A stretch of DNA of 62,817 nucleotides, taken from Teichococcus deserti. Lineage in GTDB: Bacteria > Pseudomonadota > Alphaproteobacteria > Acetobacterales > Acetobacteraceae. Each line of letters opens with the position of its first letter. Position 1 is the first letter of the stretch. Location: assembly GCF_001982615.1 (NCBI RefSeq), contig NZ_MLCO01000141.1, forward strand, positions 1 to 62,817, given 5' to 3'. Under the pieces are notes generated by a model that saw nothing but the letters and a program-made list of their open reading frames with translations, was not told the origin of the DNA and did not search any database. Made by a program: the position numbers and the translations under genes. Shown piece by piece: positions 1 through 62,815 of the stretch.

Positions 1-757
1 CCAGGGCGGGGGGGACCGGGCGCGGGGCCGGCGGCGGCGGGGCGACCACGCCGCGCGGCGCATCGACCGGCGGCGCCGGCTCGGCGCAGCCGACCGCCGG
101 CAGGATCACCCGGTCCCCCGCCGCCGCATCGCCCGGCAGCCCGAGCAGCCGCCGCAGCGAGACCAGCGGCCGGAGCTTCCGCCCGCCCGCCGCCGCCAGC
201 GCCACGGTGCCCAGCATGGCGGCATCCGCCCCCGGCAGCGGCACCAGCCCCTCCGGCCGCCGCGCGACGCCGCGCACTGCCGCGAGCGGCAGGCAGAAAT
301 CCTGGCCGTTCAGCGCGAAGCGCAGCAGCCGCAGCACCGGCTCGGGCGGCGGCGCCGCGGCCTCGGGCAGCGCGGCGCCGGCGGTCTCCGCCGCCTCGCC
401 CCGGTGCATCGACCGGAAGTCGCGGGCCAGCAGCGCCTCGAGGTCGAGCGGCGGCGCGGCACCCGGCGGCGCCAGCCCCTCCACCGACCCGACCAGCAGG
501 GCGCAGGGCATCGCGCCCTCCAGCACCAGCAGCCGCGCCGCGGGCCCGGCCGGCGGCGCGGCCCCCGGCGCCAGCAGCGCCGGCAGCGAGAGGACCGGCA
601 GCACCGCGCCGCGGCGATGCGTCAGCCCGAGCAGGCTGGCCGGCGCGCGCGGCACCCGGGTCAAAGGTCCCGGCCGCGCCAGCTCGGCCACCTGCCCCGC
701 CGGCAGGCCGTGCCGCGCGCCGCCGGCGGCGAAGACCAGCAGGCCGCTGCCCGCCAT
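1..757 (-). CDS. CheW-like chemotaxis coupling protein with two CheW modules (partial)
   Basis: Conceptual translation of the minus strand from the ATG at 757 is open to the window edge (about 252 residues, C-terminus missing). It begins MAGSGLLVFAAGG and carries a CheW-type core near residue 45, GLTHRRGAVLPVLSLPALL. A second core follows near residue 145, LLRFALNGQDFCLPLAAV, so two CheW modules are joined by an Ala/Pro-rich linker. CheW proteins bridge chemoreceptors to the CheA kinase in the cytoplasm. The start lies 5 bases after the stop of the chemoreceptor gene, so the two are almost certainly co-transcribed and likely partners. Lineage-specific CheW pairs are known, but which CheA it serves cannot be seen here. 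Whether a further domain follows beyond the edge is unknown. Confidence 0.8.
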   Translation of the reverse strand, partial: MAGSGLLVFAAGGARHGLPAGQVAELARPGPLTRVPRAPASLLGLTHRRGAVLPVLSLPALLAPGAAPPAGPAARLLVLEGAMPCALLVGSVEGLAPPGAAPPLDLEALLARDFRSMHRGEAAETAGAALPEAAAPPPEPVLRLLRFALNGQDFCLPLAAVRGVARRPEGLVPLPGADAAMLGTVALAAAGGRKLRPLVSLRRLLGLPGDAAAGDRVILPAVGCAEPAPPVDAPRGVVAPPPPAPRPVPPAL

Positions 758-762
758 GACCC

Positions 763-2715: not shown

Positions 2716-2887
2716 GCAAAGCTCCGCGCGGCAGGCATGTGAAAGGCGAGCAATCCTGCGAATGAAGGCGCTTCCGCCGCCGGATGCAAGGGTGACGCCC
2801 CCGCTGCGGCGCAGCAGAGGCGGGGCTGTTGCGGGCTGCAGCGCGGCAGGCTTGCCAGGGTTGCACCCTCCGGCTGAAAAAAGCCCG

Positions 2888-4213
2888 ATGGATGCCGATG
2901 CCGATGCCGCCGCCGCCCTCCTCTCCCCCGCCGACCGGCTGGCCGCGCTGCGCGCCGGGCGGCTGCCCGGGCTGCGCGTGCTGCGCCTGCCCGGGCTGGG
3001 GCTGACGAGCCTGCCCCCGGAGATCCTGGCCCTGGCGCCCAGCCTCGAGCTCCTCGACCTCAGCGGCAATCGTCTGCCGGACCTGCCGCCCGACCTCACG
3101 CGGCTGGAGCGGCTGAGCGCCGTCTTCGTCTCGGGCAATCCGATGCGGCGGCTGCCGGCGGCGCTGGGCGGCTGCGCGGCCCTCGGCCAGATCGGCGCGC
3201 GCGGCTGCGGCCTGGAGGAGCTTCCCGCCGAGGCCCTGCCCCCCCGCCTCCGCTGGCTCACCCTCACCGACAATGTTCTTTCGGTTCTGCCTGCCTCGCT
3301 GGGCAGGCAGGGGAGGCTGACCAAGCTGCTGCTGGCGGGGAACCGGCTGAAGGCCCTGCCGGCCGGCCTGGAAGGCGCCGCCTCCCTCGAGCTGCTGCGC
3401 CTCGCCGCCAACGACCTCGACGACTTGCCGGGCTGGATCGAAAGACTGCCGTCGCTGGCCTGGCTCGGCTGGTCGGCCAACCCTTTCGAAGGTTTTTTTC
3501 CGGTGCCTGCAGCGCAGGGCATCCGCTGGGCGGAGCTGGAAGCGGGCGCGCTGCTCGGCGAAGGCGCCTCCGGCCGGGTGCTGGCCGGCCGCTGGCGGCA
3601 GCCCGGCGCCGGCGACCGCCCCGTCGCCCTGAAGCTGTTCAAGGGCGCGATGACCAGCGACGGCCTGCCCGAGCGCGAGATGGCCGCCTGCCTGGCCGCC
3701 GGCGCGCATCCGCAGCTGACCGGCGCGCTGGGCCGCATCGAGGGGCATCCCGACAGCCTCGCCGGGCTGGTGATGCCGCTGCTGCCGGCGGGCTGGCAGG
3801 CGCTGGCCGGGCCGCCGTCGCTCGCCAGCTGCTCGCGCGACGTCTGGCCCGAGGCGCAGCGCATCACGCCGCAGGCCGGGCTGCGCCTGGCCCGCGCCGC
3901 CGCCACGGCCGGTGCCCATCTGCACCGGCGCGGGCTGCTGCATGGCGATCTCTATGCGCACAACCTGCTCTGGGACGGGGGGCGGGGCGAGGCGGTGCTG
4001 TCCGACTTCGGCGCCGCCAGCGTCCTGCCGCCCGGCCGGCGAGGCCTGGCGCGGCTGGAAAGCCGGGCGCTGGGCATTCTGCTCGAAGAGCTGATCGCCG
4101 CCTGCCCGGCGCTGCAACAGCCGCTCGGCGCGCTGGCCGCGGCCTGCCGCCAGCCGGAGGTCGCGCGCCGCCCGTCGCTGGCGGAAGCCCTGGCGCAGAT
4201 GCCGGAGCCGTGA
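2888..4213 (+). CDS. Leucine-rich repeat protein fused to a eukaryotic-type protein kinase
   Basis: The protein has 441 residues. Residues about 30-210 form short bacterial leucine-rich repeats ([36 protein letters not shown]). Residues about 220-440 form a compact kinase-like domain: glycine loop [12 protein letters not shown], Lys249 in VALKLF, catalytic loop HGDLYAHN with Asp354, and DFG with Asp373. The HGD form replaces the usual HRD, as in small-molecule kinases and some bacterial kinases. No signal peptide or membrane segment is seen, so it is presumably cytoplasmic. I chose the ATG at 2888 because the upstream part of the frame is antisense to the chemoreceptor gene and repetitive. 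It is divergent from the chemotaxis pair. LRR-kinase fusions occur in other proteobacteria, but the substrate is unknown. Confidence 0.8.
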
Positions 4214-49666: not shown

Positions 49667-50563
49667 TCAGCCGGCGGGCGACGAGACCTCCGTCCAGAAG
49701 GCTTCGGCGGCGGCCGATTGCCTGCGGCGCGGGCGGAACAGGCGGATCTCGACCGGGACGGCAAAGCCAGGGCCGGCCTCGACCAGGCGGCCGGCGGCCA
49801 GGTCATCGGCCACCATGCTGCGCGGCAGCCAGGCCAGGCCCTGGCCCTGCCGCGCCAGGGTCTGCAGCGCGGCGGCCAGCGGTGCGGTCACCGCCGTCTC
49901 CTGCACCAGGCCGCGGCCGGCCAGCGCCGCCTCCAGGATGCGGCCCAGCCCCGAGGCGGCGCTATAGGCCAGGGCCCGCACAGACACGCCCGGACGGCCT
50001 GGCAGCGACCAGCGCGGCGCGCCATCCGTCCCCGGCGCCGAGACCGGAACCAGCAGGTCCTGCCCCACCACGACGCTGGAGAACTCGCCGGGCGGCAGGC
50101 GGGCCGAGCCCTCGCCCTGCGCATGGGCGAGCAGGAAATCGGCGTCGCCGGCGGCGAAGAGGCGCTCGCAGGCCGCCATGCTGTCGGAGAGCAGGTTGAG
50201 CGGGCCGGGCGCCTCCATCGGGAACAGGCCGCGGATCCAGTTGGGGAAGAAGGTGAAGGACAGCGCATGGGTCGCCGCGATGGACAGGGCCGTGCCCTCC
50301 CGCCCCGCCGCCTTCAGCGCGCCGCGGCGGGCGGCGTGGATGTCGCGCACCAGGGCGGCCGCCCTGTCCTGCAGGTCCAAGCCGGCGGCGGCCAGCTGCA
50401 CCCCCTGGGGGCTGCGCAGCACCAGCGGCGTGCCGATCCAGGCCTCCAGCGCCTGGATGCGGCGGCTGAAGGCGGGCTGGGTGACGTGCCTGGCGGCGGC
50501 GGCGCGGGAGAAGTTCCGGTGCTCGGCCAGGGCCAGGAAGTCCTCGAGCCAGGTCAGTTCCAT
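49667..50563 (-). CDS. LysR family regulator, divergent from D-tartrate dehydratase
   Basis: The 298-residue protein begins MELTWLEDFLALAEHRNFSR and AFSRRIQALEAWIGTPLVLR, a clear LysR winged helix, followed by an effector-binding domain. It faces the tartrate dehydratase gene across 113 bases, the usual layout of a LysR activator and its target, so a tartrate or related dicarboxylate effector is plausible. A TTGG-N14-CCAA pair at 50607-50628 could be part of its site, but is weak. Confidence 0.85.
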   Translation of the reverse strand: MELTWLEDFLALAEHRNFSRAAAARHVTQPAFSRRIQALEAWIGTPLVLRSPQGVQLAAAGLDLQDRAAALVRDIHAARRGALKAAGREGTALSIAATHALSFTFFPNWIRGLFPMEAPGPLNLLSDSMAACERLFAAGDADFLLAHAQGEGSARLPPGEFSSVVVGQDLLVPVSAPGTDGAPRWSLPGRPGVSVRALAYSAASGLGRILEAALAGRGLVQETAVTAPLAAALQTLARQGQGLAWLPRSMVADDLAAGRLVEAGPGFAVPVEIRLFRPRRRQSAAAEAFWTEVSSPAG

Positions 50564-50676
50564 GGGGCGCGATGCCGGATCGGCATGGGATCCTCGGATA
50601 ACGGCATTGGATGCGAGGCGGAACCCAAGGCTAATCGGGCGGCTGACAGAAGACCAGATCCGAGAAGGAATGCCGG

Positions 50677-51840
50677 ATGCGCATCGTCGATGTCCGCGAG
50701 ATCACCCAGCCGATCGCCTCGCCGATCCGCAACGCCTATATCGACTTCTCCAAGATGACGACCAGCCTGGTCGCCGTGGTGACCGACGTCATCCGCGATG
50801 GAAAGCCGGTGGTGGGCTATGGCTTCAACTCGAATGGCCGCTATGGCCAGGGCGGGCTGATCCGCGAGCGATTCCGCGACCGCATCCTGGAAGCCGATCC
50901 GGCGAGCCTGCGCGACGAGGCGCGCGACAACATCGACCCGGCAAAAGTCTGGGCGGCGATGATGACCAACGAGAAGCCGGGCGGGCATGGCGAGCGCTCG
51001 GTCGCCGTCGGCACCGTCGACATGGCCGTCTGGGACGCCGTCGCCAAGATCGAAGGAAAACCGCTGTTCCGGCTGCTGGCGGAGCGGCATGGGCGCCAGG
51101 CCGATCCGCGCGTCTTCGTCTATGCCGCCGGCGGCTACTACTACCCCGGCAAGGACAATTCGGCGCTGCGCGGCGAGATGCGCAGCTATCTCGACCGCGG
51201 CTACACCGTGGTGAAGATGAAGATCGGCGGCGCCTCGCTGTCCGAGGACTGCGCCCGCATCGAGGCGGTGCTGGCCGAGCTGGACGGAAAAGCCCAGCTG
51301 GCCGTCGACGCCAATGGCCGCTTCGACCTGGAGGCCGCCATCGCCTATGCCAAGGCGCTGCGGCAGTTTCCGCTGTTCTGGTACGAGGAGGCCGGCGACC
51401 CGCTGGACTACGCCCTGCAGGCGGCGCTGGCCGAGTTCTACCCGGGCGCCATGGCCACCGGCGAAAACCTGTTCTCGCATCAGGATGCGCGCAACCTGCT
51501 GCGCTATGGCGGCATGCGCCCCGACCGCGACTGGCTGCAATTCGACTGCGCGCTGTCCTATGGCCTGGTCGAGTACCTGCGCACGCTCGAGGTGCTGCAG
51601 CAGCTCGGCTGGTCGCCGCGCCGCTGCATCCCGCATGGCGGGCACCAGATGTCGCTGATGATCGCCGCCGGCCTGGGCCTCGGCGGCAATGAAAGCTATC
51701 CGGACCTGTTCCAGCCCTATGGCGGCTTCCCCGACGGCGTCCGCGTCGAGGAAGGCCATGTCACCATGCCCGAACTGCCCGGCATCGGCTTCGAGGGCAA
51801 GTCGGACCTGATCCGGGTGATGCGGGAGCTCGCGGCTTAA
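50677..51840 (+). CDS. tarD: D(-)-tartrate dehydratase (enolase superfamily)
   Basis: The 387-residue protein closely follows the Bradyrhizobium D-tartrate dehydratase as I remember it: MRIVDVREITQPIASPIRNA, YGFNSNGRYGQGGLIRERF, NEKPGGHGERSVAVGT and YAAGGYYYPGK. Catalytic residues are in place: the KxK pair Lys180/Lys182 in VVKMKIGG, metal ligands in VDANGRF, WYEEAGDP and ATGENLF, and general acid His320 in CIPHGGHQM. It dehydrates D-tartrate to oxaloacetate in the cytoplasm. No tartrate transporter is adjacent. Its stop overlaps the stop of the convergent acylase gene (TTAA). Confidence 0.92.
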   Translation: MRIVDVREITQPIASPIRNAYIDFSKMTTSLVAVVTDVIRDGKPVVGYGFNSNGRYGQGGLIRERFRDRILEADPASLRDEARDNIDPAKVWAAMMTNEKPGGHGERSVAVGTVDMAVWDAVAKIEGKPLFRLLAERHGRQADPRVFVYAAGGYYYPGKDNSALRGEMRSYLDRGYTVVKMKIGGASLSEDCARIEAVLAELDGKAQLAVDANGRFDLEAAIAYAKALRQFPLFWYEEAGDPLDYALQAALAEFYPGAMATGENLFSHQDARNLLRYGGMRPDRDWLQFDCALSYGLVEYLRTLEVLQQLGWSPRRCIPHGGHQMSLMIAAGLGLGGNESYPDLFQPYGGFPDGVRVEEGHVTMPELPGIGFEGKSDLIRVMRELAA

Positions 51841-54179
51841 GGCGTCAGCTGCTGCCTGTGGCTGGCCTGCGCCTCGATCGCCGGCCAGTCATAGAGCATC
51901 GGCACCATCGCGCAGTCCGACCAGGCCTCGTTCTGGTTGGTGTAGTAGGCGCTGCCGGGCTGGCCGGAGGCGCCATGGAACACCGCCCAGCGGCAGTTCT
52001 CCCAGGCGCCGACATCGAAGACATAGCGGGCGAGCGCGCCATAGGTGGCGCGCGGCCCGGCGCTGCAGAGCAGGCCATTGGCCAGCACCGTGTCGCCATC
52101 GCCGCCGACCGGGCGCGACGGCGGATCCAGCAGCGCCGCCGCCGCCGGATATTGTTCGGACAGCGGATGCACGAAGCGCGGTTGGTGCACCTCGCCCCAG
52201 CGCTTCTCCGCCGCCACCTCCGGCGAGGCGGCCGCTTCGGCCAGCGCCTCCTGCAGCAACTGGTCCCAGCTGCCGCCACCCAGCAAGGAAGAATCATCGC
52301 GGCGGAGCAGGTCGGGCAGTGTCCACCACAGCTGGTTCTGCGGCACCACGCCCGGCGCCACCGCGGTCCAGGGATGCTGCCCGACCCCGGACAAGCCGCT
52401 GCGCTCGGCCAGCTTCCGCGTCGCCGCCCGGCGCAGCGCGATATAGGCGGCGGGCCGCGGGTCTTCAGCGCGCATCTGCCCGTCCCAGCCGAGCAGCGTC
52501 CGCCGCAGCGCCGCGGCAGCGGGATCGGCGGGCTCCGCCAGCCCGCGCAGCCGGTCGCGCAGCAGCAGCGCATTGGGCGACAGGGTGTCGGCATGCAGCG
52601 CCGCCGCATCCTCGGGCCCGAAGCCGGGCATGGCGCGCAGCCGCTCCAGGATGCGCGACGCGCGATAGGGCGGGTGGCAATCGGTGCAGAGATAGTCCGG
52701 ATGGTCGTCGGCCACGACCCGGTTGTTGGCGGTGACGATGAGCCCCTCGGGCGGGTCGATCACCTGGGGCATCTCTTCATGCGCGATCCAGCCCTGCCAG
52801 TCGTTCGCCGGGTCCCAGCCGGGCAGCGGCAGCCAGCCATGCGCGGCGCTGCGGCGCGGCACCCGGGCGCGCACCAGATGGCCGATCTGGCCGGCGGTGT
52901 CGGCGGCGACCAGATTGTGGTCGATCAGCCCCCAGCCGCGGGTGGCGTCATAGAGCTCCGCCACCGTCCTGGCCTGGGTCATCCGCGGCAGGCAGTCGAA
53001 GGACAGATCCGGTTCGGCGAACTGCACCGAGCGCAGGGCGAGCGCGGTCCCGCTGGCAGGGTCGCCGGCGATCACCGGGCCATGAATGGTCTCGACGATC
53101 TCGAAGTCGCAGGTGCCGGCGTCGCGCACCTTGATGCTGTCGCGCCGGCGCGTGACGGGGGCCAGGCCCTCGCCATGCTGCGTGGCCGCGCCGTCCTCGG
53201 AAAACCGCTCCAGGAACAGGTCATGGATGTCCATGAAGGCATGGGTGACGCAATAGGCGACGCTGCCGTTATGGGCGAAATGCGGGAAGCCCGGCACGCC
53301 CGGCACGGTCAGCCCGACCATGTCGAACGCGTCGCAGGCGACATGGTGCTGCGCATACATGTTGGGGATTTCGAAGACGCGGTGCGGGTCGCCGGCCAGC
53401 ACGGGCCGCCCGGTGCCGCTGCGCGCCGGCCCCACCGCCCAGTTGTTGCTGCCGCCGGCAGTCTCGTCGCCCGGGCCCTCGCGGCCGAGCGACTCGAGCA
53501 GCGCGCGGATCGCCGGCGCCAGCGCCTCCAGATCGGCCTGGTGCCGCGCGGCGTCGCTGCCGGGCGGGATGGCCAGCAGGTCGCGGCCGCCATCGTCGTA
53601 GCGCAGCTTGCCCACGTTCTCCGCGCCCACCACCGGCAGGGCGGCGGCGCGCCACAGCTTGAACCAGACCGAGCCCATCAGCAGCCCCAGCCGCCGCATC
53701 ACCGCAATGCTGTGCCAGGCCTCCCAGCGCTCCGGCGTCTCGCCGAGCAGGCGGTATTCGACCGGGACCGGCGCGCCGGATTCCAGGAAGCCGTTCACCC
53801 CCGCCGCATAGGACTCGAGCATCGCCCGCGCCTCGGCGCCGATCGCCGCGACATCCCGGCGGCAGGCGGCTTCCATCCCCAGACGGCGGGCCAGCATGTC
53901 GGAGGCCACCGCCCCTTCCCCCAGCCATTCGGCGGCGCGGCCCAGCGCCCGGCGCCGCGTCAGCTCCATCTGGAACAGCCGGTCCTGGGCATGGGCGAAG
54001 CCCAGCGCCCTCCAGGCGTCCTGGGCGGTCGCCGCCTTGAGATGCGGGATCCCCCAGGAGTCGCGCAGCAGGCTGGCCGGTTCCGTCAGCCCCGGCAGCG
54101 CCACCTGCCCGTCCAGCGGCGCCAGGCAGGCCGACAGCTGCTGCGGATTGAGGCTTTCGGCGGAAATCTTGGGCAGCAT
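51837..54179 (-). CDS. Penicillin-acylase-family (S45) Ntn-hydrolase
   Basis: The 780-residue protein has the architecture of self-cleaving acylases. An alpha part begins near LLRDSWGIPHLKAATAQDAW and AHAQDRLFQMELTRRRALGR. The nucleophile Ser244 lies in GGSNNWAVG, where processing would expose the Ser N-terminus. A long beta part contains LAGDPHRVFEIPNMY, PGVPGFPHFAHNGSVAY and VTANNRV. Such enzymes hydrolyse side-chain amides of beta-lactams, lactones or other N-acyl compounds. I chose ATG 54179, which has AGGAGGG upstream; no signal peptide is evident there, although classical members are periplasmic. It is divergent from the ABC importer across 107 bases containing a GATATATC operator candidate. 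Confidence 0.85.
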   Translation of the reverse strand: MLPKISAESLNPQQLSACLAPLDGQVALPGLTEPASLLRDSWGIPHLKAATAQDAWRALGFAHAQDRLFQMELTRRRALGRAAEWLGEGAVASDMLARRLGMEAACRRDVAAIGAEARAMLESYAAGVNGFLESGAPVPVEYRLLGETPERWEAWHSIAVMRRLGLLMGSVWFKLWRAAALPVVGAENVGKLRYDDGGRDLLAIPPGSDAARHQADLEALAPAIRALLESLGREGPGDETAGGSNNWAVGPARSGTGRPVLAGDPHRVFEIPNMYAQHHVACDAFDMVGLTVPGVPGFPHFAHNGSVAYCVTHAFMDIHDLFLERFSEDGAATQHGEGLAPVTRRRDSIKVRDAGTCDFEIVETIHGPVIAGDPASGTALALRSVQFAEPDLSFDCLPRMTQARTVAELYDATRGWGLIDHNLVAADTAGQIGHLVRARVPRRSAAHGWLPLPGWDPANDWQGWIAHEEMPQVIDPPEGLIVTANNRVVADDHPDYLCTDCHPPYRASRILERLRAMPGFGPEDAAALHADTLSPNALLLRDRLRGLAEPADPAAAALRRTLLGWDGQMRAEDPRPAAYIALRRAATRKLAERSGLSGVGQHPWTAVAPGVVPQNQLWWTLPDLLRRDDSSLLGGGSWDQLLQEALAEAAASPEVAAEKRWGEVHQPRFVHPLSEQYPAAAALLDPPSRPVGGDGDTVLANGLLCSAGPRATYGALARYVFDVGAWENCRWAVFHGASGQPGSAYYTNQNEAWSDCAMVPMLYDWPAIEAQASHRQQLTP

Positions 54180-54239
54180 CCCGGTCCCTCCTGGCTGCTT
54201 GGGCCGCTTTGGCGGGCTTCGACCCGCTTGCAGCCTCGA

Positions 54240-54261
54240 CGATATATCAAATACTCTATCG
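54240..54261. promoter_or_regulatory. GATATATC operator candidate, divergent acylase/importer promoter
   Basis: The 8-base palindrome GATATATC (54241-54248) is part of a wider inverted repeat, CGATA (54240-54244) and TATCG (54257-54261). Read on the other strand it shares TGATATATCGT with the site before the aminotransferase gene at 61493. The AT-rich character is exceptional here. The GntR protein encoded at 57076 is the likely ligand. Confidence 0.6.
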
Positions 54262-54286
54262 CGAAACGGGGTTGGGCAAGCGGGGC

Positions 54287-55384
54287 ATGGCAGAGGCGGC
54301 ACGCCACCAGGGCGGCATCCTGCTGGAAGGGCTGGTCAAGCGCTTCGGGCCGGTGGCGGCGATCGACGGCGTCTCGCTGGCGGTGCAGCCGGGCGAGTTC
54401 CTGGCGCTGCTCGGCCCCTCCGGCTCCGGCAAGACGTCTATTCTCATGACCATCGCCGGCTTCGAGTTCCCGGATGCGGGCCGGGTCGTCATCGGCGGCG
54501 AGGAGGTCACCTGGACGCCGCCCAACCGCCGCAACCTGGGCATGGTGTTCCAGCGCTACACCCTGTTCCCGCATATGACGGTGCTGGAGAACATCGCCTT
54601 CCCGCTGAAGATGCGCGGCGTGGCGCGCGCGGCGCGGGAGGAGCAGGCCCGCGCCGCGCTCCGCACCGTGCGGCTGGAGAGCTATGGCGACCGCCGCCCG
54701 GCGCAGCTCTCCGGCGGGCAGCAGCAGCGCGTCGCCATCGCGCGCGCCATCGTCTACCGCCCGCGCGTGCTGCTGATGGACGAGCCGCTCTCGGCGCTGG
54801 ACAAGAACCTGCGCGAGGAGATGCAGATCGAGATCAAGCAGCTGCAGCGCGAGATCGGCATCACCGTGGTCTTCGTCACCCATGACCAGACCGAGGCCCT
54901 GACCATGGCCGACCGCGTCGCCGTGCTGGACCATGGCCGGCTGCAGCAGCTCGGCGCGCCGCGCGCCCTCTACGAGGCGCCGGAAACCCCCTTCGTCGCC
55001 CGCTTCATCGGCGAGACCAACTTTTTTCAGGGCCGCGCCGGTGGCGCGGCGAGCGACGGCGCGCTGTTCCCGGTGCAGCTGGACAATGGCGCACAGATCC
55101 ATGCGCTGGCCGTCGGCGCGATCGCGGCGGGCGCCAGGCTGACCCTCGCCCTGCGGCCGGAGCGGCTGCGCCTGGCCCCCGCCGGCGCCCCGGGCCTGGC
55201 CGCCGAGGTGCGCGAGGCCATCTATGTCGGCAATGCCACCACCCTGCTGCTGCGCGGTGCCGATGGCGCGACCTTGCGCGCCCGCATCCCCGCCGGCGCC
55301 GGTTTTTCCGAGCCCGCGCCCGGCGAGCACGTCACCCTGCAATGGGAGGCCGGCGACGCCCGCGCCTTCGCGGCGGCGGCCTGA
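54287..55384 (+). CDS. PotA-type ABC importer ATP-binding protein
   Basis: The 365-residue ATPase has Walker A GPSGSGKTSILMTIAG, Q-loop VFQRYTLFPHMTVLEN, signature LSGGQQQRVAIARAIVYRP, Walker B VLLMDEPLSALD and a C-terminal TOBE domain (about residues 285-360). It is of the spermidine/putrescine (PotA) class, which also carries opines, 2-aminoethylphosphonate and other small cations. I chose ATG 54287; a longer frame from 54209 crosses the operator. It is first in an operon with two permeases, a regulator and a binding protein, joined by ATGA-type overlaps. Confidence 0.88.
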   Translation: MAEAARHQGGILLEGLVKRFGPVAAIDGVSLAVQPGEFLALLGPSGSGKTSILMTIAGFEFPDAGRVVIGGEEVTWTPPNRRNLGMVFQRYTLFPHMTVLENIAFPLKMRGVARAAREEQARAALRTVRLESYGDRRPAQLSGGQQQRVAIARAIVYRPRVLLMDEPLSALDKNLREEMQIEIKQLQREIGITVVFVTHDQTEALTMADRVAVLDHGRLQQLGAPRALYEAPETPFVARFIGETNFFQGRAGGAASDGALFPVQLDNGAQIHALAVGAIAAGARLTLALRPERLRLAPAGAPGLAAEVREAIYVGNATTLLLRGADGATLRARIPAGAGFSEPAPGEHVTLQWEAGDARAFAAAA

Positions 55385-56250
55385 TGCGGCGTCCATCCTC
55401 CTTCCTGCTGGCCGGCCGCCGCTACAGCCCGGCGGCCAGCCTGCTGCTGGCGGCGCCGTTCCTGCTGCTGATCGTCGTCGTCTTCCTGCTGCCGCTGGCG
55501 ACGCTGCTGCATGAATCGCTCTTCCTGCCCTCGCCCGGCCTGCAGCATTACGAACGCGCCCTGGCCGAGCCGGTCTATCTGCGCGTCATGCTGCGCACCC
55601 TGCGCATCGCGGCGCAGGTGACCGCGCTGGCCCTGGTCCTGGCCTGGCCGCTGGCCTGGGTGATGTCGCGGTCCAAGGGCCTCGGCCTGGCGCTGCTGGC
55701 CGCCGCCGTGCTGCTGCCGCTCTGGACGTCCGTTCTCGTGCGCACCTATGCCTGGATGGTCCTCCTGCAGCGCAACGGTGTGGTCAACCAGTGGCTGCAG
55801 AAGCTGGGGCTGACCGACGAGCCGCTGAAGCTGCTCTACACCGAGCCCGCCGTCGTGCTGGCCATGGCCCATGTCCTGCTGCCCTTCATGGTGCTGCCGA
55901 TCTATTCGGCGCTGAAAGGCATCCCCGAGGACTATACCCGCGCGGCGCAGATGCTCGGCGCCTCGGCCTGGGCCAGCTTCCGCGAGGTGATCTGGCCGCT
56001 GGCGCTGCCCGGCGTCACCTCCGGCTGCCTGATGGTCTTTCTTCTCGCGCTGGGCTTCTTCGTCACGCCGGCGCTGATCGGCGGGCCGCAGCAGATGATG
56101 ATCGCGACGCTGGTCTCGCAGCAGGTGCGCGAGATGCTGGACTGGTCCTTCGCCGGCGCGCTGGTCGGCATTCTCCTGGCCTTCGTCCTGCTGCTGACGG
56201 TGATCTTCCGCCGGGCCGTGCGGCTCGACCGCTTCGTGGGGCAGGGCTGA
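55384..56250 (+). CDS. PotB-type ABC importer permease
   Basis: The 288-residue membrane protein has about six transmembrane segments. Family marks are LLPLWTSVLVRTYAWMVLLQ, RNGVVNQWL, LPFMVLPIYSALKGIPEDYT and the coupling motif AAQMLGASAWASFREVIWPL. Its ATG shares a base with the stop of the ATPase gene, and it ends likewise on the next permease. Confidence 0.88.
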   Translation: MRRPSSFLLAGRRYSPAASLLLAAPFLLLIVVVFLLPLATLLHESLFLPSPGLQHYERALAEPVYLRVMLRTLRIAAQVTALALVLAWPLAWVMSRSKGLGLALLAAAVLLPLWTSVLVRTYAWMVLLQRNGVVNQWLQKLGLTDEPLKLLYTEPAVVLAMAHVLLPFMVLPIYSALKGIPEDYTRAAQMLGASAWASFREVIWPLALPGVTSGCLMVFLLALGFFVTPALIGGPQQMMIATLVSQQVREMLDWSFAGALVGILLAFVLLLTVIFRRAVRLDRFVGQG

Positions 56251-57083
56251 TGCGCGCGGCCCCCAACCCGGCCGGCCGCATGGCGCTGAACGCCGCGGCC
56301 TATGCCGTCACCGTCTTCCTGCTGTTGCCGACGCTGATCATCATCCCGATGTCCTTCGGGCCGGAACGCTTCCTGCAGTTCCCGCCGAACGGCTTCTCGA
56401 TGCGCTGGTACCTGGAGTATTTCCGCGACGAGGAATGGCTGCGCGCCACCTTCTTCAGCCTGGAGGCAGGGCTGATCTCGGCGGTCGGCGCCACCCTGGT
56501 CGGCACCCTGCTGGCCCTGGCCCTGGTGCGCGGACGGCTGCCGGGACGCGGGTTGATCGAATTGCTGGTGGTCGGCCCGGTCATCGTCCCGCATGTGGCG
56601 CTTGCCGTCGCCATGTTCCTGGTCTTCGAGCAGCTGCGCCTGACCGGCACGCTGCTCGGCTTCGCCATGGCGCATACCGTGCTGGCCCTGCCCTTCGTCG
56701 TCTTCACCGTGCTCGCCGCCCTCTACCGCTTCGATGCCGAGCTGGAACGCGCGGCGCTGTCCTGCGGCGCCGGGCCGGTGCGAGGCTTCTTCCACGTCAC
56801 CCTGCCGCTGATCGCCCCCGGCGTGGTCTCGGCCGCGCTCTTCGCCTTCGTCATCTCCTTCGACGAGGCGGTGGTCTCCTTCTTCATCTCGGGGCTGGAC
56901 CGCAAGACCCTGCCCCGGAAGATGTTCGAGGACATCGACTACAACATCTCCCCCACCCTGGCCGCCGTCGCCACCATGCTGACCCTGCTGACCATCGGCG
57001 CGCTGCTGCTCGGCTATGCGCTGAAGCGTGCTATGGAGCGGCGCGCCGCGGCCGCGGCGGGAGAAGGTGGTGACCATGGCTGA
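56250..57083 (+). CDS. PotC-type ABC importer permease
   Basis: The 277-residue membrane protein has LLPTLIIIPMSFGPERFLQF, GFSMRWYLEYF and the coupling region AALSCGAGPVRGFFHVTLPL. The highly PotC-like FVISFDEAVVSFFISGLDRK and TLPRKMFEDIDYNISPTLAA follow. It partners the PotB-like subunit. Its last 8 bases overlap the start of the GntR gene. Confidence 0.88.
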   Translation: MRAAPNPAGRMALNAAAYAVTVFLLLPTLIIIPMSFGPERFLQFPPNGFSMRWYLEYFRDEEWLRATFFSLEAGLISAVGATLVGTLLALALVRGRLPGRGLIELLVVGPVIVPHVALAVAMFLVFEQLRLTGTLLGFAMAHTVLALPFVVFTVLAALYRFDAELERAALSCGAGPVRGFFHVTLPLIAPGVVSAALFAFVISFDEAVVSFFISGLDRKTLPRKMFEDIDYNISPTLAAVATMLTLLTIGALLLGYALKRAMERRAAAAAGEGGDHG

Positions 57084-57789
57084 CAGCGCTGAGATCTTTC
57101 CCTTCGTCGCCCCGGTGGGGCGCGAGAACCTGGCGGCGAAGGTCTATGCCGAGCTGCAGGCGGCGCTGTTCGAAGGCCGCATGCGCCCCGGCCAGCGGCT
57201 GAAGATCCGTGACCTGGCCGCCGCCATGCAGGTCTCCGAGACCCCGGTGCGGGAGGCCGTGGTGCAGCTGGCCCGCGAGCGCGCGCTGCGCATGGAGGCG
57301 GCGCGCTCGATCACCGTCGCCGGCCTCAGCCTGGAGCAGTATCTGGAGCTGCGCACCATCCGGCTCGAGCTCGAGGCGCTGGCCGCCGAGGCGGCGGCGC
57401 TGCGCATCCAGCCCGGCGCCATCGACGCCCTGGCCGAGGCGCATGACCGGCTGATGGCGGCGGAAGAGGCCGGCGAGCCCATACCGGCCAACCGCGCCAA
57501 CTGGGATTTCCACCACGGCCTGTACCGCGCCGCCGCCATGCCCGAGCTGCTGGCCATCATCGAGAATATCTGGCTGCGCAACGGGCCGATGCACGCCCTG
57601 CTCTATCCGCATGCGCGGCCGAGCTATCCGGGGCGGCACCGGCATCTCGACATCATCGACGGGCTGCGCGCGCGCGACCCGTCGGCCACCCGCATCGCGC
57701 TCTGCGCCGACCTGACCGAGGGCGGCGCCAACCTGGTCGCCTATCTCGGCCGGCTGGAGCGCGAGGCCGCCTGGACGCCTCCCAAATAA
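57076..57789 (+). CDS. GntR family (FCD) regulator of the amide-utilisation operon
   Basis: The 237-residue protein has a winged helix (residues about 15-80: AAKVYAELQAALFEGRMRPG, MQVSETPVREAVVQLARERA). The FCD domain has metal-site positions in NWDFHHGLYRAAAMPELLAI and YPGRHRHLDIIDGLRARDPS. It sits inside the importer operon, overlapping the permease gene by 8 bases, with the binding-protein gene 25 bases downstream. It is the best candidate to bind the GATATATC palindromes at 54240 and 61493. The inducer is presumably the imported compound or its product. Confidence 0.88.
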   Translation: MADSAEIFPFVAPVGRENLAAKVYAELQAALFEGRMRPGQRLKIRDLAAAMQVSETPVREAVVQLARERALRMEAARSITVAGLSLEQYLELRTIRLELEALAAEAAALRIQPGAIDALAEAHDRLMAAEEAGEPIPANRANWDFHHGLYRAAAMPELLAIIENIWLRNGPMHALLYPHARPSYPGRHRHLDIIDGLRARDPSATRIALCADLTEGGANLVAYLGRLEREAAWTPPK

Positions 57790-57814
57790 CGTCCCTCCCC
57801 GAAGGAGCTGCATC

Positions 57815-58870
57815 ATGGCCTTGCTGCGGAGACACCTTCTTGCCCTGGGCGCCGCCGGCGTCACGCCCCTCGCCCGCCCCGCCCTCGCCCAGCGCGGCTC
57901 GGGCGAGGTCATCGTCGCCGCCACCGGCGGGCTGATGGAACGCAGCCTGCAGGAGCACTTTTATAAGCGCTTCGAATCCGAAGTCGGCATCCGCGTCCGC
58001 TCGGTGCCGATCGAATTGCCGGACCAATGGGCCCGGGCGCGGGCCGGCCAGCGCAGCGGCAACGTCCCTTTCGACGTGGTCACGGCGACGCCGCCCGACC
58101 TGATCCAGCACGCCGATATCCTGGCGCCGGTCGATTGCTCGATGCCCGGAATCGCGGCGCATGCCCTGCCCAATGGCTGCTTCCCCGAAGGCATCATCCG
58201 CACCGCCGGCGGCATGGCGCTGACCTGGAGCAAGAAGGCTTTTCCGAACGGCGGCCCGCAGAGCTGGGCCGATTTCTTCGACGTCCAGAAATTCCCCGGC
58301 TCCCGCTCGCTGCCCGACACCGGCGACCGCGAATGGTGGGTGCCGCTGGCAGCCCTGATGGCCGACGGCGTCGAGCGGGACAAATTGTTCCCGATGGATG
58401 TCGACCGTGCCTATCGCAAGCTGGACACCCTCAAGCGCCACGTCGCCGCCTGGTGGAAGAGCGGCGACAACTCGATGCAGATCATGCGCGGCGGCGACGC
58501 CGTGATGACCATGGTCTATTCCAGCCGCGCCGTGCCGCTGGCGAAATCGGGGGAATTTGACTTTACCTGGAACCAGGCGATCCGCGACGTCGGCAACTGG
58601 GCGGTGCTGAAGGGCGGGCCGAACACGGCCAATGCCATGCGCTTCCTCGACTTCTTCGTGCAGAACCCGCAGGAGCATCTGTCCTTCAGCGACAAGGTCA
58701 GCTTCGATTCCAACAACCGCGAGGCGCCCGCCCTGGTCCCCGAGGCCGAGCGCCGCTACCGCGCCTCCTGGCCGGCGAACTGGGAGAAGCTGATCATCGC
58801 GGACTATGCCTGGATCGCCGCCAACCGCAACGCGCTGCGCGAGCGCTGGGTCACCTGGCTGACGCAGTAA
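57815..58870 (+). CDS. PotD-type periplasmic binding protein
   Basis: The 351-residue binding protein has a Tat-like leader (LLRRHLLALGAAG, cleavage near ALAQ). Marks of the spermidine/putrescine-type family are VIVAATGGLMERSLQEHFYK, PFDVVTATPPDLIQHADILA, GMALTWSKKAFPNGGPQSWA, and MQIMRGGDAVMTMVYSSRAV. It delivers ligand to the PotABC-like complex encoded just upstream. The start has GAAGGAG 8 bases before. The ligand is probably a small cationic amine or amide, judged from the downstream enzymes. Confidence 0.87.
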   Translation: MALLRRHLLALGAAGVTPLARPALAQRGSGEVIVAATGGLMERSLQEHFYKRFESEVGIRVRSVPIELPDQWARARAGQRSGNVPFDVVTATPPDLIQHADILAPVDCSMPGIAAHALPNGCFPEGIIRTAGGMALTWSKKAFPNGGPQSWADFFDVQKFPGSRSLPDTGDREWWVPLAALMADGVERDKLFPMDVDRAYRKLDTLKRHVAAWWKSGDNSMQIMRGGDAVMTMVYSSRAVPLAKSGEFDFTWNQAIRDVGNWAVLKGGPNTANAMRFLDFFVQNPQEHLSFSDKVSFDSNNREAPALVPEAERRYRASWPANWEKLIIADYAWIAANRNALRERWVTWLTQ

Positions 58871-58884
58871 AAAGGTTCCGGCCG

Positions 58885-59229
58885 ATGCTGGTCAACGACC
58901 CCGAATCCGCGCATTGGCCGGTCGACCCCGCGCGGCTGGAACTCGTCGAAGAGTTCCGCCGCGCCCCGCGTGGGCCGCACAGCGAAGCGCTCCAAAAGCT
59001 GCTGCACCGCATGCGCTGGTCCGGCGTCGGCCGGCGCCACGTGCTGGTGGTGCTGGAGCCCAACCGCCGCTGGATGCTGGCGCGCATGCCCGGGCAGCGC
59101 GGCGCCCCCATCGAGACCTTCCCCAACCGCGTTTTCACCAGCCTGGCCGAGGCCGAATGGGCCGTCTTCGTCATCCGCTGGGAGGCGCTGACCGGCACCA
59201 CGCTGCAGGACAAGAACCCCTCCGCATGA
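58885..59229 (+). CDS. Small protein resembling the N,N-dimethylformamidase alpha subunit
   Basis: The 114-residue protein is of similar size to the small subunit of bacterial dimethylformamidase (about 130 residues). It shares the pattern of that subunit's C-terminal half: an aromatic-rich strand (RRHVLVVLEPNRRWMLAR) followed by ETFPNRVFTSLAEAEWAVFV, where F-x-[ST]-x2-EA-x2-AVF is common to both. Its stop overlaps the start of the large-subunit gene, the known alpha-beta gene order. Overall identity looks low, so the assignment leans on context. It would stabilise or complete the enzyme. Confidence 0.6.
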   Translation: MLVNDPESAHWPVDPARLELVEEFRRAPRGPHSEALQKLLHRMRWSGVGRRHVLVVLEPNRRWMLARMPGQRGAPIETFPNRVFTSLAEAEWAVFVIRWEALTGTTLQDKNPSA

Positions 59230-61475
59230 CCGACACCACCGCCGTGCTGGGCTATGCCTGGCCGCTCACCGTCTCGCCCGGCGAGGCGGTGCGCTTCCAC
59301 CTGTCCAGCGCGACGCTGCAGGAGGCGGAGGCGACGCTGCTGCGGGTGCGCTGCGCCGATCCCGATCCCGACGGGCCCGGCCTGCGCTTCGAGGTGCCGG
59401 GCACGCCGCTGGACGGACGCGTGCCGCTGCGCCACCAGCCGCTGCGCCCGGGCTCCTGCGGCATCGTGGGCGACGCGCCGGCGCTGCGCCGCGCCGGCTC
59501 CTTCTCGGTCGGCGCCTTCCTCTGGCCGACGGCGCCGCGGGCCGGGGCGCAGGGCATCGTCACGCGCTGGCGCGACGACACGGCGCAGGGCTGGCGGCTG
59601 GGGCTGGATGCGGAGGGCTGCCTGGAATTCGCCCTCGGCGACGGCGCTTCAACCTGGCGCGTCAGCGCGCCGCAGCCGCTGCTGGAGCGCGAATGGGTCT
59701 TCGTCACCGCGGCCTATGACGCGGAGAAGGGCGAGCTGCGGCTCTGCCAGGAAAGCCTCGATCCGCAGGCGGGGCGCAGCAGGACGGCCGGCGCCGTGGC
59801 GGCCGGGCCGCGGCACTTCGCGCCGCCGGCCGAGGTGGCGCTGGTCTTCGCCGCGCAGGCACTGGAGACCGGCGTCGCGCCGCTGACGGCCGCGCATTAC
59901 GATGGCAAGATCGACCGGCCACGGCTCTGCGCCGGCGCCCTGTCGCCCGGCCGGCTGCGCGCCCTGGCCGAGGCGCTGCACCCCGCCCCCGGCGATCCTG
60001 GCCTGCTGGGCGCCTGGGATTTCTCCCGCGGCATTTCCACCGACCTGATCCACGACCTCTCGGCCAACCGCCTCGATGGCTGGCTGCGGCAGACTCCCGC
60101 CCGCGCCATGACCGGCGCCAATTGGGACGGCAGCACCCAGCAATGGACCGAGCGGCCGCATCTCTACGGCGCCATCCAGTTCCACAGCGACGACATGCAT
60201 GACGCCGGCTGGGAGGCTGACCTGGAATTCCGCGTGCCGCGCGACTGGAAGAGCGGCTTCTACGCGCTGCGGCTGCGCGCCCGCGAAGGCAGCGACGACC
60301 CAGTCGAGAGCTTCGTGGCCTTCTTCATCCGCGCCCCGCTCGGCCAGGCGCGATCGAAGCTGGCCTTCGTCGCCAGCACCGCGACCTTCCTGGCCTATGC
60401 CAACAGCGCGCTGCGGCTCGACCAGGTGCATGCGGAATCCATGCTGGAAGGGCTGATCGCGCTGTCGCGAGACGATGTCTACCTGCAGGAGCATCGCGAG
60501 CTCGGCCTCTCGACCTACGACACCCACAGCGACGGCAGCGGCTGGTGCTATTCCACGGCCAAGCGCCCGGTGCTGAACATGCGGCCGCGCGGCGCCACCT
60601 TCAACTACGGCAACGACACCCATATCATCGACTGGCTGGAGCAGACTGGCCAGGACTACGACGTCATCACCGACGAAGACATCCACCACCAGGGCGCGCA
60701 GCTGCTGGCCGGCTACCGCTGCGTCGTCACCGGCTCGCATCCCGAATATTTCTCCCGCGCCATGCTGGACGCCTTCGACAGCTACCAGCGCGATGGCGGG
60801 CGGCATGTCTATCTCGGCGGCAACGGCTTCTACTGGCGCATCGCCTTCCACCCGACCCTGCCGCACGCCATGGAGATCCGCCGCGGCATGCTGGGCCTGC
60901 GCACCTGGGAGGGGGAGGCGGGCGAGAATTCCCTCTCCTACACGGGCGAGCCGTCCGGGTTGTGGCGCGCCAATGGCCGCCCGCCGCAGCGCCTGGTCGG
61001 CGTCGGCTTCGATGCCCAGGTCTTCACCCGCTCCTACCCCTATCGCTGGCTGGAAGGCGCGCGGGATCCGCGGCTGTCCTGGATGGTCGACGGCATCGAC
61101 CTCAATGCGCCGCTCGGCGATTTCGGGCTGCGCGGCGGCGGCGCGGCGGGGCTGGAGGTCGATCGCGTCGATCCGACCCTGGGCTCTGCGCCCGGCATGG
61201 TCTGGCTCGCGACGGCGGACCGCCTCGACTATGGCGGCGTGCCGACGCTCGAGGAGCTGCGCACCCTGCATCGCGGTGCCATGGGCGACCAGAACGCCCG
61301 TGTCCGCGCCGACATCGCCTTCACGCCCACGGCCCGCGGCGGCGCCGTCTTCTCCACCGGCTCGATCGCCTGGGCCTGCGCCCTGTCGCATGACGGCTAC
61401 GACAATGCCGTCGCCCGGCTGACCGGCAATGTGATCCGCCGCTTCCTCGATCCCTGTCCTTTCGAGGGCTTCTGA
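59226..61475 (+). CDS. N,N-dimethylformamidase beta subunit-like amidohydrolase
   Basis: The 749-residue protein has an N-terminal part with a concanavalin-like sandwich (FSVGAFLWPTAPRAGAQGIV, WVFVTAAYDAEKGELRL). The catalytic part resembles the large subunit of iron-dependent dimethylformamidase: FVASTATFLAYANSALRLDQ, TYDTHSDGSGWCYST, RPRGATFNYGNDTHIIDWLE and CVVTGSHPEYFS. The Fe ligands reported for the Paracoccus enzyme (Tyr440, His519, Glu521) correspond to Tyr431, His505 and Glu507 here. Such enzymes hydrolyse formamides or other simple amides to acid plus amine. The polyamine-type importer upstream suggests a larger or charged amide as true substrate. Confidence 0.8.
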   Translation: MTDTTAVLGYAWPLTVSPGEAVRFHLSSATLQEAEATLLRVRCADPDPDGPGLRFEVPGTPLDGRVPLRHQPLRPGSCGIVGDAPALRRAGSFSVGAFLWPTAPRAGAQGIVTRWRDDTAQGWRLGLDAEGCLEFALGDGASTWRVSAPQPLLEREWVFVTAAYDAEKGELRLCQESLDPQAGRSRTAGAVAAGPRHFAPPAEVALVFAAQALETGVAPLTAAHYDGKIDRPRLCAGALSPGRLRALAEALHPAPGDPGLLGAWDFSRGISTDLIHDLSANRLDGWLRQTPARAMTGANWDGSTQQWTERPHLYGAIQFHSDDMHDAGWEADLEFRVPRDWKSGFYALRLRAREGSDDPVESFVAFFIRAPLGQARSKLAFVASTATFLAYANSALRLDQVHAESMLEGLIALSRDDVYLQEHRELGLSTYDTHSDGSGWCYSTAKRPVLNMRPRGATFNYGNDTHIIDWLEQTGQDYDVITDEDIHHQGAQLLAGYRCVVTGSHPEYFSRAMLDAFDSYQRDGGRHVYLGGNGFYWRIAFHPTLPHAMEIRRGMLGLRTWEGEAGENSLSYTGEPSGLWRANGRPPQRLVGVGFDAQVFTRSYPYRWLEGARDPRLSWMVDGIDLNAPLGDFGLRGGGAAGLEVDRVDPTLGSAPGMVWLATADRLDYGGVPTLEELRTLHRGAMGDQNARVRADIAFTPTARGGAVFSTGSIAWACALSHDGYDNAVARLTGNVIRRFLDPCPFEGF

Positions 61476-61492
61476 TCCTGGCGGAGCACTTT

Positions 61493-61507
61493 GATATATG
61501 ATATATC
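61493..61507. promoter_or_regulatory. GATATATGATATATC operator candidate before the aminotransferase gene
   Basis: GATATATGATATATC is a perfect 15-base palindrome located 37 bases before the aminotransferase start and 17 bases after the amidase stop. It shares TGATATATCGT with the reverse strand of the site at 54240. This suggests one regulator, probably the GntR protein of this operon, acting at both points. Confidence 0.65.
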
Positions 61508-61544
61508 GTGCGGCGCCACGGCCCAGAAACGACAGGATAGCGCC

Positions 61545-62777
61545 ATGCCCGAGCTTCTTCCCGGCAGCGATGCCGCGCTCCGCGCCCGCGCCCGGCAGGT
61601 GATCCCCGGCGGGCTCTGGGGCCATCTGAACGCGGCGAAGCTGCCTGAAGGCTACCCGCAGTTCTTCGCCGAGGCCGAAGGCTGCCGGCTCCGCGACGTC
61701 GACGGGCGCGAGACCATCGACTTCATGTGCTCCTGGGGCCCGATCGTGCTCGGCCACAAGCATGCCGTGGTCGAGGCCGCCGCCCGCGCCCAGGCTGAGC
61801 GCGGCGACACCATGAACGGCCCCGCCCCCGTGCTGGTCGAGCTCGCCGAGCTCATGGTGCAGATGATCCCGCATGCCGACTGGATCCTGCTCGGCAAGAA
61901 CGGCACCGACGCCACCACCGCCTGCGTCACCATCGCCCGCGCCGCCACCGGCCGCCGCAAGATCCTGGTGGCACGCGGCAGCTACCACGGCGCCGTGCCC
62001 TGGTGCTCGCCCTCCGTCGCCGGCGTCACCGCCGAGGACCGTGCCCATCTGATCCAGTTCGACTACAACGACACCGACAGCCTCGACCGCGCGGTCGCCG
62101 AGGCCGGCGCCGACTTTGCCGGCATCATCGTCACCGCCTTCCGCCACGACTTCGCCCGTGACCAGGAGCTGGCCACCGCCGACTTCGCCCGCCACGCCCG
62201 GCAGGTCTGCGACACCACCGGCGCCGCGCTGATCCTCGACGACGTGCGCGCCGGCTTCCGCATCGATCTCGCCGGCTCCTGGGAGCCGCTCGGCGTGCGG
62301 CCCGACCTGTCTGCCTACAGCAAGGCCATCGCCAACGGCCACCCGCTGGCCGCCATGGCCGGCGGCGAGCGCTTCCGCGAGGCCGCGACCCAGGTCTACA
62401 CCACCGGCTCCTTCTGGTGCGGCGCCGTCCCCATGGCCGCGGCCCTGGCCACCCTGCAGGAGCTGAAGCGCATCGACGGCCCCGAGCGCATGCGCGCCAT
62501 GGGCCAGCGCCTGCGCGACGGCCTGGCGATCCTGGCGCGCCGCCACAACCTGGCCGTCAACCAGACCGGCCCGGCGCAGATGCCGCTGATGACCTTCGTC
62601 GGCGACGTGGACTGGAAGATGGGCGACGCCTTCTGCAGCGAAGCCCTCCGCCACGGCGCCTACTTCCACCCGCGCCACAACATGTTCCTGTCATGCGCGC
62701 ACGGCGAAGCCGACATCGACGCCGCGTTGGTTGCCGCTGAAGCAGGGTTTGCAGCGGTGAAGAGGAGCATCGGGTAG
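61545..62777 (+). CDS. Class III pyridoxal-phosphate aminotransferase
   Basis: The 410-residue enzyme resembles glutamate-1-semialdehyde aminomutase-type class III aminotransferases: ARARQVIPGGLWGHLNAAKL, MCSWGPIVLGHKHAVVEAAA, GKNGTDATTACVTIARAATG, ILDDVRAGFRIDLAGSWEPL and the PLP-binding Lys in SAYSKAIANGHPLAAMAGG. HemL proper is unlikely given the context and the VRAGFR segment in place of the usual EV-type motif. I chose ATG 61545; a longer frame begins inside the operator. It probably transaminates the amine freed by the upstream amidase. A clean terminator follows. Confidence 0.88.
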   Translation: MPELLPGSDAALRARARQVIPGGLWGHLNAAKLPEGYPQFFAEAEGCRLRDVDGRETIDFMCSWGPIVLGHKHAVVEAAARAQAERGDTMNGPAPVLVELAELMVQMIPHADWILLGKNGTDATTACVTIARAATGRRKILVARGSYHGAVPWCSPSVAGVTAEDRAHLIQFDYNDTDSLDRAVAEAGADFAGIIVTAFRHDFARDQELATADFARHARQVCDTTGAALILDDVRAGFRIDLAGSWEPLGVRPDLSAYSKAIANGHPLAAMAGGERFREAATQVYTTGSFWCGAVPMAAALATLQELKRIDGPERMRAMGQRLRDGLAILARRHNLAVNQTGPAQMPLMTFVGDVDWKMGDAFCSEALRHGAYFHPRHNMFLSCAHGEADIDAALVAAEAGFAAVKRSIG

Positions 62778-62778
62778 G

Positions 62779-62815
62779 CCAGGGGAATGAATTCCCCTGG
62801 ACCCCTTCTTTTTTC
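62779..62815 (+). terminator. Intrinsic terminator after the aminotransferase gene
   Basis: CCAGGGGAAT and ATTCCCCTGG form a perfect 10-base-pair stem around GA at 62779-62800. A T-rich run (CTTCTTTTTTC) follows. It lies directly after the stop codon and marks the end of the transcription unit. Confidence 0.9.

Follow-up and report, generated by a model that had tools for sequence, protein, structure and literature searches.

Introduction

Iron enzymes of the dimethylformamidase (DMFase) type are best known from a solvent, and cephalosporin-type acylases from antibiotic processing. Here we describe a locus of Teichococcus deserti, at positions 51837-62777 of a 62,817-nt stretch of contig NZ_MLCO01000141.1 (the window, to which all coordinates refer unless a locus is named), in which relatives of both lie beside an importer, a GntR-type regulator, and a class III aminotransferase (AT). 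Together with further genes under the same predicted control, the cluster seems to equip soil and water bacteria to import an amide, cut it with three unrelated kinds of amidase, and feed the amine to central metabolism.

Several described systems resemble parts of this locus. In the DMFase DmfA1A2 (6lvb), Y399, Y440, and E521 are iron ligands, H519 is catalytic, and Phe693 narrows the substrate pocket (PMC7686228, accessible part). The locus enzyme shares the two-subunit gene pair, the DMFA2_C domain, the site of two tyrosines and one glutamate, and the histidine; it differs in lying within a predicted import and transamination regulon, in the apparent replacement of Phe693, and in the larger substrate it would need if our model holds. 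N-acetyl-(R)-β-phenylalanine acylase (8huy) belongs to the same family and by its name acts on an N-acyl amine. The cephalosporin/glutaryl-7-ACA acylase 4hsr shares with the locus acylase membership of the S45 group, 816 bits for the β chain, and the same self-cleavage site; it is named after a semi-synthetic substrate, whereas the locus acylase sits in a conserved predicted regulon that may reveal a natural role. FumI (6hbs), nearest solved relative of the AT by sequence similarity only, acts on hydrolysed fumonisin, a 2-amino-3-hydroxy compound, whose C2 amine it transfers to pyruvate to leave a ketone (PMC2933618, accessible part); three newer fumonisin transaminases are 61-74% identical to the first two known (PMC9858248, accessible part). 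Finally, the OtnK/OtnI/OtnC pathway for four-carbon acid sugars resembles the regulon in that the regulon kinase exceeds the OtnK cut-off, and differs in that the OtnI of this genome lies away from the operator sites, the regulon aldolase falls below the OtnC cut-off, and a canonical set elsewhere scores higher.

Results

A predicted GntR regulon

We consider it very likely that one GntR-type predicted regulon, larger than the window, unites the genes listed below with others elsewhere in the 6.25-Mb host genome. Bit scores are from Pfam and NCBIfam profiles with curated cut-offs, and solved relatives are from sequence comparison with the PDB; G and L numbers are our labels for genomes (the host is G000) and loci.

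51837-54179, minus strand: S45 Ntn-hydrolase acylase, cephalosporin/glutaryl-7-ACA acylase type (PF01804, 564 bits; 4hsr_B, 815.8 bits over 537 residues; GGSNNW self-cleavage site)
54240-54249, unstranded: candidate GntR operator CGATATATCA between acylase and potA (motif search)
54287-55384, plus strand: PotA-like ABC ATPase (TIGR01187, 361.3 bits, cut-off 355.6)
55384-56250, plus strand: PotB-like permease (PF00528; NF007044, 182.5 bits, below the cut-off of 348)
56250-57083, plus strand: PotC-like permease (PF00528; NF007047, 158.4 bits, below the cut-off of 326)
57076-57789, plus strand: GntR/FCD transcription regulator, predicted to act at the operators (PF00392 and PF07729)
57815-58870, plus strand: extracellular solute-binding protein (SBP) of the importer, opine/polyamine/γ-aminobutyrate (GABA) group (PF13416; mannopine-binding protein 5l9s, 163.5 bits)
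58885-59229, plus strand: DMFase-type small subunit (profile A1 to 6lvb_B, E 5.7e-7; adjoins the large subunit at 47 of 53 distinct places)
59226-61475, plus strand: large subunit of a DMFase-type iron amidohydrolase (PF20254, DMFA2_C, 315.9 bits, cut-off 27; 6lvb, 480 bits; 8huy, 436 bits)
61499-61508, minus strand: second candidate operator (CGATATATCA on the minus strand, inside TGATATATGATATATCG; motif search)
61545-62777, plus strand: class III AT, FumI-like (PF00202; 6hbs, 416.7 bits; next solved relative, 174.6)
62779-62815, plus strand: intrinsic terminator, a 9-bp hairpin (62779-62800) followed by a T run (folding)

The palindrome TGATATATCA stands ahead of acylase/potA and again ahead of the AT. 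CGATATATCA occurs twice in the genome, both times in the window, and its reversed control not at all. The shorter TGATATATC is found at five places, four of them upstream of regulon genes: the two in the window, before acylase/potA and before the AT; one in L089, flanked by genes for an amidase-signature amidase and a peptide-type binding protein; and one in L091, separating a second such amidase from a DUF1537 kinase/class II aldolase pair that is divergent from it. The fifth lies inside an alpha/beta hydrolase gene (L090), is kept in L108 of genome G385, and is probably due to chance. Beyond the searched core, the sites at potA read GATATATCAAATA in 18 of 19 cases.

The 13 Roseomonas-type genomes (G000 and G385-G396) have 55 distinct sites, of which 43 fall in the 300 bp ahead of a regulon gene, one unfetched site being scored as a miss. 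All 32 sites inside large-subunit loci qualify, these loci being mutually related and the source of the motif, as do 11 of the 23 sites outside them. Each of the 43 has at least one regulon neighbour besides the two amidase queries, which were picked from such sites; the other query genes were taken from physical clusters. Every one of the 17 related genomes that carry the motif at potA has a GntR orthologue (E <= 1e-40), as does one of 12 comparison genomes, G340 (44% identity), whose AT-kinase cluster has two GATATATC sites. Genome G280 has the importer and both subunits (67%) but neither a GntR orthologue nor GATATATC in the locus; there the large-subunit gene is followed by a convergent gene for a TauE-type sulfite exporter (L033, 13055-13846). 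From these patterns the GntR/FCD protein is predicted to act at TGATATATCA-type palindromes, as repressor or activator, and it is well supported by sequence that three unrelated amidase families, two binding-protein types, the AT, and a carbon-cleaving module belong to one predicted regulon.

We rejected two other ways of reading the motif. Its rarity is weak evidence for a regulon, as the 12 comparison genomes hold between 0 and 9 distinct TGATATATC sites each, and its position counts instead. Nor is the AT-side motif mere coding conservation (ATG ATA TAT CAR at the AT start), because it shares the AT frame at only 7 of the 13 readable sites, the other 6 being out of frame; the sites of L056, L057, L058, and L059 could not be read in this test, and those of L056 and L057 are also in frame by another comparison.

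Further sites were seen in related genomes. Two Roseomonas-type genomes have a perfect TGATATATCA between divergent genes (L092, position 3989; L093, position 4019), which in L092 encode a peptide-type binding protein and a class I/II aminotransferase, with the same layout in L093; they may be an extra branch of the regulon. In two Bosea genomes paired sites lie 0.7-0.8 kb apart by a dihydrodipicolinate-synthase-family gene (L109, 3984-4720; L111, 3954-4759), the gene between the pair in L109 being a second GntR/FCD regulator, and G400 has a site pair of similar spacing.

Conservation of the gene set

A scan of named genomes yielded 21 loci: 13 Roseomonas-type (L043-L055), four from Bosea/Bradyrhizobium (L056-L059), and four from metagenome assemblies. 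All 17 Roseomonas-type and Bosea/Bradyrhizobium loci (13/13 and 4/4) have PotABC, SBP, and both amidohydrolase subunits, and 15 of them also have GntR and AT. L044 and L052 lack both; GntR turns up elsewhere in each of these two genomes, and the genome of L052 also has an AT at another place (L095), which carries a motif of its own. Among 385 genomes sampled from the class, a large-subunit relative is found in 64 (E 1e-20) and an AT relative in 13 (E 1e-90), but the thresholds differ too much for the two counts to be compared.

The acylase varies more: 15 of 18 genomes (G000, G182, G385-G396, and G399) have a relative with 60% identity or more. It lies on the same contig as the cluster in G385 (about 7 kb away) and G399 (about 5 kb away), and L050 also has an acylase relative. 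All the genes named in the original prediction are in place (by Pfam, the small subunit by profile). The result that would have refuted it, an occurrence of these genes in unrelated contexts, was not found for the importer, the subunits, and the AT, while the acylase is the more variable member. Its central proposal, a unit for amide import and cleavage with unrelated amidases, is borne out at the level of predicted co-regulation and of conservation as a set; the gene set is real and conserved, and the predicted regulon is larger than was described.

Relatives hold the binding protein, kinase, and aldolase within the cluster. The kinase, the aldolase, and c11 adjoin the AT in L046, L048, L051, L054, and L055, and kinase, aldolase, and split transketolase adjoin GntR in L057-L059. 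The amidase-signature gene that diverges from kinase/aldolase at a single operator does so in both the host (L091) and G385 (L107).

A DMFase-type two-subunit iron amidohydrolase

Judged by sequence, the locus encodes a DMFase-type two-subunit iron amidohydrolase: the DMFA2_C domain, the iron-ligand and histidine residues, and a small-subunit partner are all present. The large subunit is closest among solved proteins to DMFase and to N-acetyl-(R)-β-phenylalanine acylase. Its Y391, Y431, E507, and H505 align with the DMFase ligands Y399, Y440, and E521 and the catalytic H519, and the residues matching these four, together with that matching E657, which we take to be an active-site residue, show no variation across the 26 aligned relatives, two of which are paralogues in the host. 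A threonine stands opposite Phe693, close to a gap and hence in an uncertain part of the alignment.

The small protein has no Pfam match and, as a single query, found nothing convincing in the PDB (best E 0.47, an unrelated protein). A 26-sequence profile (A1) ranks the DMFase small subunit 6lvb_B first, ahead of ribosomal protein S15 (E 0.041). A small-subunit relative (E 1e-8) is present in 55 of 63 large-subunit loci, or 48 of 53 after ten second copies of the same place are dropped; in L063 the two genes are 5.4 kb apart.

The host has two more DMFase-type large subunits (L041, 8957-11146, G000:C201; L042, 9205-11379, G000:C489), 37 and 39% identical. Both adjoin a peptide-type binding protein, and in L041 permease genes as well; the fetched 20 kb around each revealed no small-subunit relative. 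In a distant group (L035, L060, L062; large subunit 52-62%), the two-subunit enzyme occurs with a peptide-type ABC importer, an SDR protein, GntR proteins of 38-43%, and a D-threonine-aldolase-like protein carrying a D-ser_dehydrat domain; L035 and L060 have GATATATCA sites ahead of genes. In L035 this protein scores 67.2 bits against PF14031 (cut-off 22), and 66 bits against the 3-hydroxy-D-aspartate aldolase BhcC, far below the cut-off of 690. D-threonine aldolase-like enzymes would likewise work on a substrate with adjacent hydroxyl and amine groups, an analogy that lends a little support to an HO-C-C-NH2 product shape for the amidohydrolase family.

Other amidases and the importer

The acylase is closest to 4hsr in the PDB comparison, and GGSNNW at the start of its β chain supplies the self-cleaving Gly-Ser site of S45 enzymes, in keeping with the PF01804 match. 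No signal peptide is evident by eye at the N-termini of the acylase and the iron enzyme, so amide cleavage is probably intracellular. The two unlinked amidases at operator sites match PF01425 with 327.7 bits (L089, which carries a GGSSGGA motif) and 340.8 bits (L091). Under the shared motif there are thus four amidases of three unrelated families and, with the peptide-type protein paired with the L089 amidase, two binding-protein types; the two amidases first proposed are indeed unrelated, but their number was too low.

PotA passes the polyamine ATPase subfamily model, while PotB and PotC fall below theirs. Among solved proteins, those nearest to the SBP carry the names of mannopine, agropine, polyamine, and GABA-type binders, which does not fix the charge of the substrate; the earlier description of it as cationic is not supported.

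Aminotransferase and carbon-cleaving genes

The nearest solved relative of the AT, FumI, is an aminopentol aminotransferase, and it is plausible that the AT transaminates the freed amine. Because the FumI substrate is a 2-amino-3-hydroxy compound, the product of a FumI-type reaction would be an α-hydroxyketone, which thiamine enzyme neighbours would fit. A fused E1-type thiamine enzyme, assigned by a Pfam and NCBIfam scan of one protein, lies between large subunit and AT in 10 of 13 Roseomonas-type loci (L045-L051, L053-L055). A split transketolase adjoins the cluster in L044 and L057-L059, and the AT in L081 and L085. In L081 the AT occurs with GntR, transketolase, and a divergent kinase and aldolase; the queries used found no acylase, large subunit, or amidase in those 20 kb.

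The DUF1537 kinase passes the cut-off of 350 for 3-oxo-tetronate kinase (OtnK) in 4 of 4 loci (372.4-400.8 bits; L046, L091, L081, L057), the host regulon kinase with 372 bits. The class II aldolase fails the cut-off of 250 for the decarboxylating aldolase OtnC in 4 of 4 (83.3-112.2 bits; L051, L091, L081, L057). OtnI matches above cut-off occur in the host at C577 and C189, none at operator sites.

Transcription units and neighbouring genes

Consecutive genes overlap by 1 (potA/potB), 1 (potB/potC), 8 (potC/gntR), and 4 bases (small/large subunit), so the run from potA to the large subunit fits an operon. The AT may form a separate transcription unit, because it has its own candidate operator in the 69-bp gap ahead of it. 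The strong closing terminator that had been proposed is confirmed by folding: the hairpin with its flanks reaches -21.4 kcal/mol (z -2.92), and 0 of 200 shuffles were as good. The output of a simple hairpin scan did not contain it.

Beyond the acylase, at 49667-51840, an apparent LysR-type gene is divergent from an enolase-superfamily (MR_MLE_C) gene, which is convergent with the acylase and has a 49% relative near aldolase, kinase, and c11 in L099. The G+C content is unusually high over positions 1-4000 of the window, at 0.797 and 0.764 in the two opening 2-kb steps compared with 0.69-0.74 elsewhere.

Discussion

We suggest, with a probability of roughly 55%, that the locus belongs to a predicted catabolic regulon for an imported N-acyl amine, the best explanation of what we found. 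The SBP with PotABC, and the peptide-type binding protein from the other locus, would import the N-acylated amine, and the S45 acylase, the iron enzyme, and the two amidase-signature amidases would hydrolyse different amide bonds of one compound or compound family. A slight preference goes to the order amide to amine to ketone, in which the FumI-like AT would convert the freed amine to a ketone next to a hydroxyl group.

What follows is chemistry that we infer tentatively, with odds short of even. The DUF1537 kinase would phosphorylate the CH2OH of the ketone and the class II aldolase would split the product into triose phosphate and an aldehyde; in relatives a transketolase-type or E1-type thiamine enzyme would cleave the same α-hydroxyketone. 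On this scheme the freed amine would have the form HOCH2-CH(NH2)-CH(OH)-R. The exact α-hydroxyketone step is, in our estimate, doubtful. So, to the same degree, is the full pathway, one for N-acylated 2-amino-1,3-diol or β-hydroxy-amine compounds in which three unrelated amidase families, a FumI-type AT, and a DUF1537 kinase with a class II aldolase or thiamine enzymes answer to one GntR protein. We found no description of such a pathway, no paper on N-acetyl-(R)-β-phenylalanine acylase (8huy), none linking GntR with TGATATATCA, and none joining dimethylformamidase with Roseomonas or with 'phenylalanine acylase' in the literature searched, which left most subscription papers outside. A precedent for a thiamine enzyme in fumonisin breakdown was not found in the accessible part of PMC4845651.

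A number of observations weigh against this proposal. The nearest-structure argument for the AT chemistry is weak. The best host relatives of the E1-type enzyme and the split transketolase are only 38 and 35% identical, and because a close relative was not found, kinase and aldolase would be the only route of this genome in our model. The host regulon aldolase is below cut-off for both OtnC (111.6 against 250) and FucA (149 against 400), and a separate canonical OtnK/OtnI/OtnC cluster scores 617, 405, and 270 bits. At 54% identity, the orthology of the host kinase with the clustered kinase of L046 is not certain. The L091 amidase, despite its Pfam score, matched none of the simple active-site patterns tried. 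The acylase was not found at E 1e-60 in G398 and G400, and G397 has only a 32% relative. Regulon genes account for only two of four sites in G182, where one lies before a split transketolase, and for 2/5, 2/6, 2/7, and 2/6 in Bosea/Bradyrhizobium genomes (two unfetched G400 sites counted as misses); the sites of the comparison genomes belong here too, as do 12 of the 23 outside large-subunit loci in the 13 genomes (one unfetched), which are not at known regulon genes.

Since the canonical OtnK/OtnI/OtnC set scores higher elsewhere and its OtnK shares only 36% identity with the regulon kinase, the kinase and aldolase of the regulon would seem to be a diverged paralogous pair with a ketone as putative substrate. 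An exact 3-oxo-tetronate route, with 3-amino-2,4-dihydroxybutanoate as the amine, was accordingly lowered in our ranking, in view of that cluster and of the failure of the aldolase against the OtnC model.

It is unlikely, though worth weighing, that kinase/aldolase and thiamine enzymes instead process the hydroxy acid that the amidases would release as the acyl half, leaving the AT to the amine half. The amidase-signature gene divergent from kinase/aldolase at one operator, in the host and G385, would fit this, as would a kinase family that acts on four-carbon acid sugars (PMC10580937, accessible part); L081, however, ties kinase/aldolase to the AT, and none of the amidase queries used found a match there. 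We give a similarly low chance to general amide scavenging, in which several amidases and importers for different compounds share an inducer and no single pathway exists. Four amidases of three families, two binding-protein types, the sites at the peptide-type binding protein and class I/II aminotransferase of L092 (and the like layout of L093), and the 12 of 23 sites away from known regulon genes all speak for it. Against this, one main flux is suggested by the conservation, in Roseomonas and Bosea alike, of potABC, SBP, small and large subunits, and AT under a common motif.

The original prediction held that a cationic polyamine-type amide is imported, cut by two amidases, and its amine transaminated. 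PotA, above its polyamine cut-off, agrees with this; but the permeases are below the PotB and PotC cut-offs, the SBP is nearest a mannopine binder, and we know of no place for kinase/aldolase or thiamine enzymes in polyamine breakdown, so that we regard it as improbable. The DMFase-type subunits with their intact iron site would speak for the breakdown of dimethylformamide or another small amide used as a solvent, but this reading is the least probable: such a substrate would not call for this importer or an aminotransferase, the pocket-narrowing Phe693 aligns, uncertainly near a gap, with threonine, and the large subunit is nearly as close to N-acetyl-(R)-β-phenylalanine acylase.

If the N-acyl amine pathway is true, it would show what two groups of enzymes, so far familiar chiefly through man-made or semi-synthetic substrates, do in nature. 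The inducer of a single GntR protein should point to the natural substrate, which makes the evolved role of both groups directly testable, and the regulon also supplies a candidate GntR operator, with its amidases serving as leads for biocatalysis.

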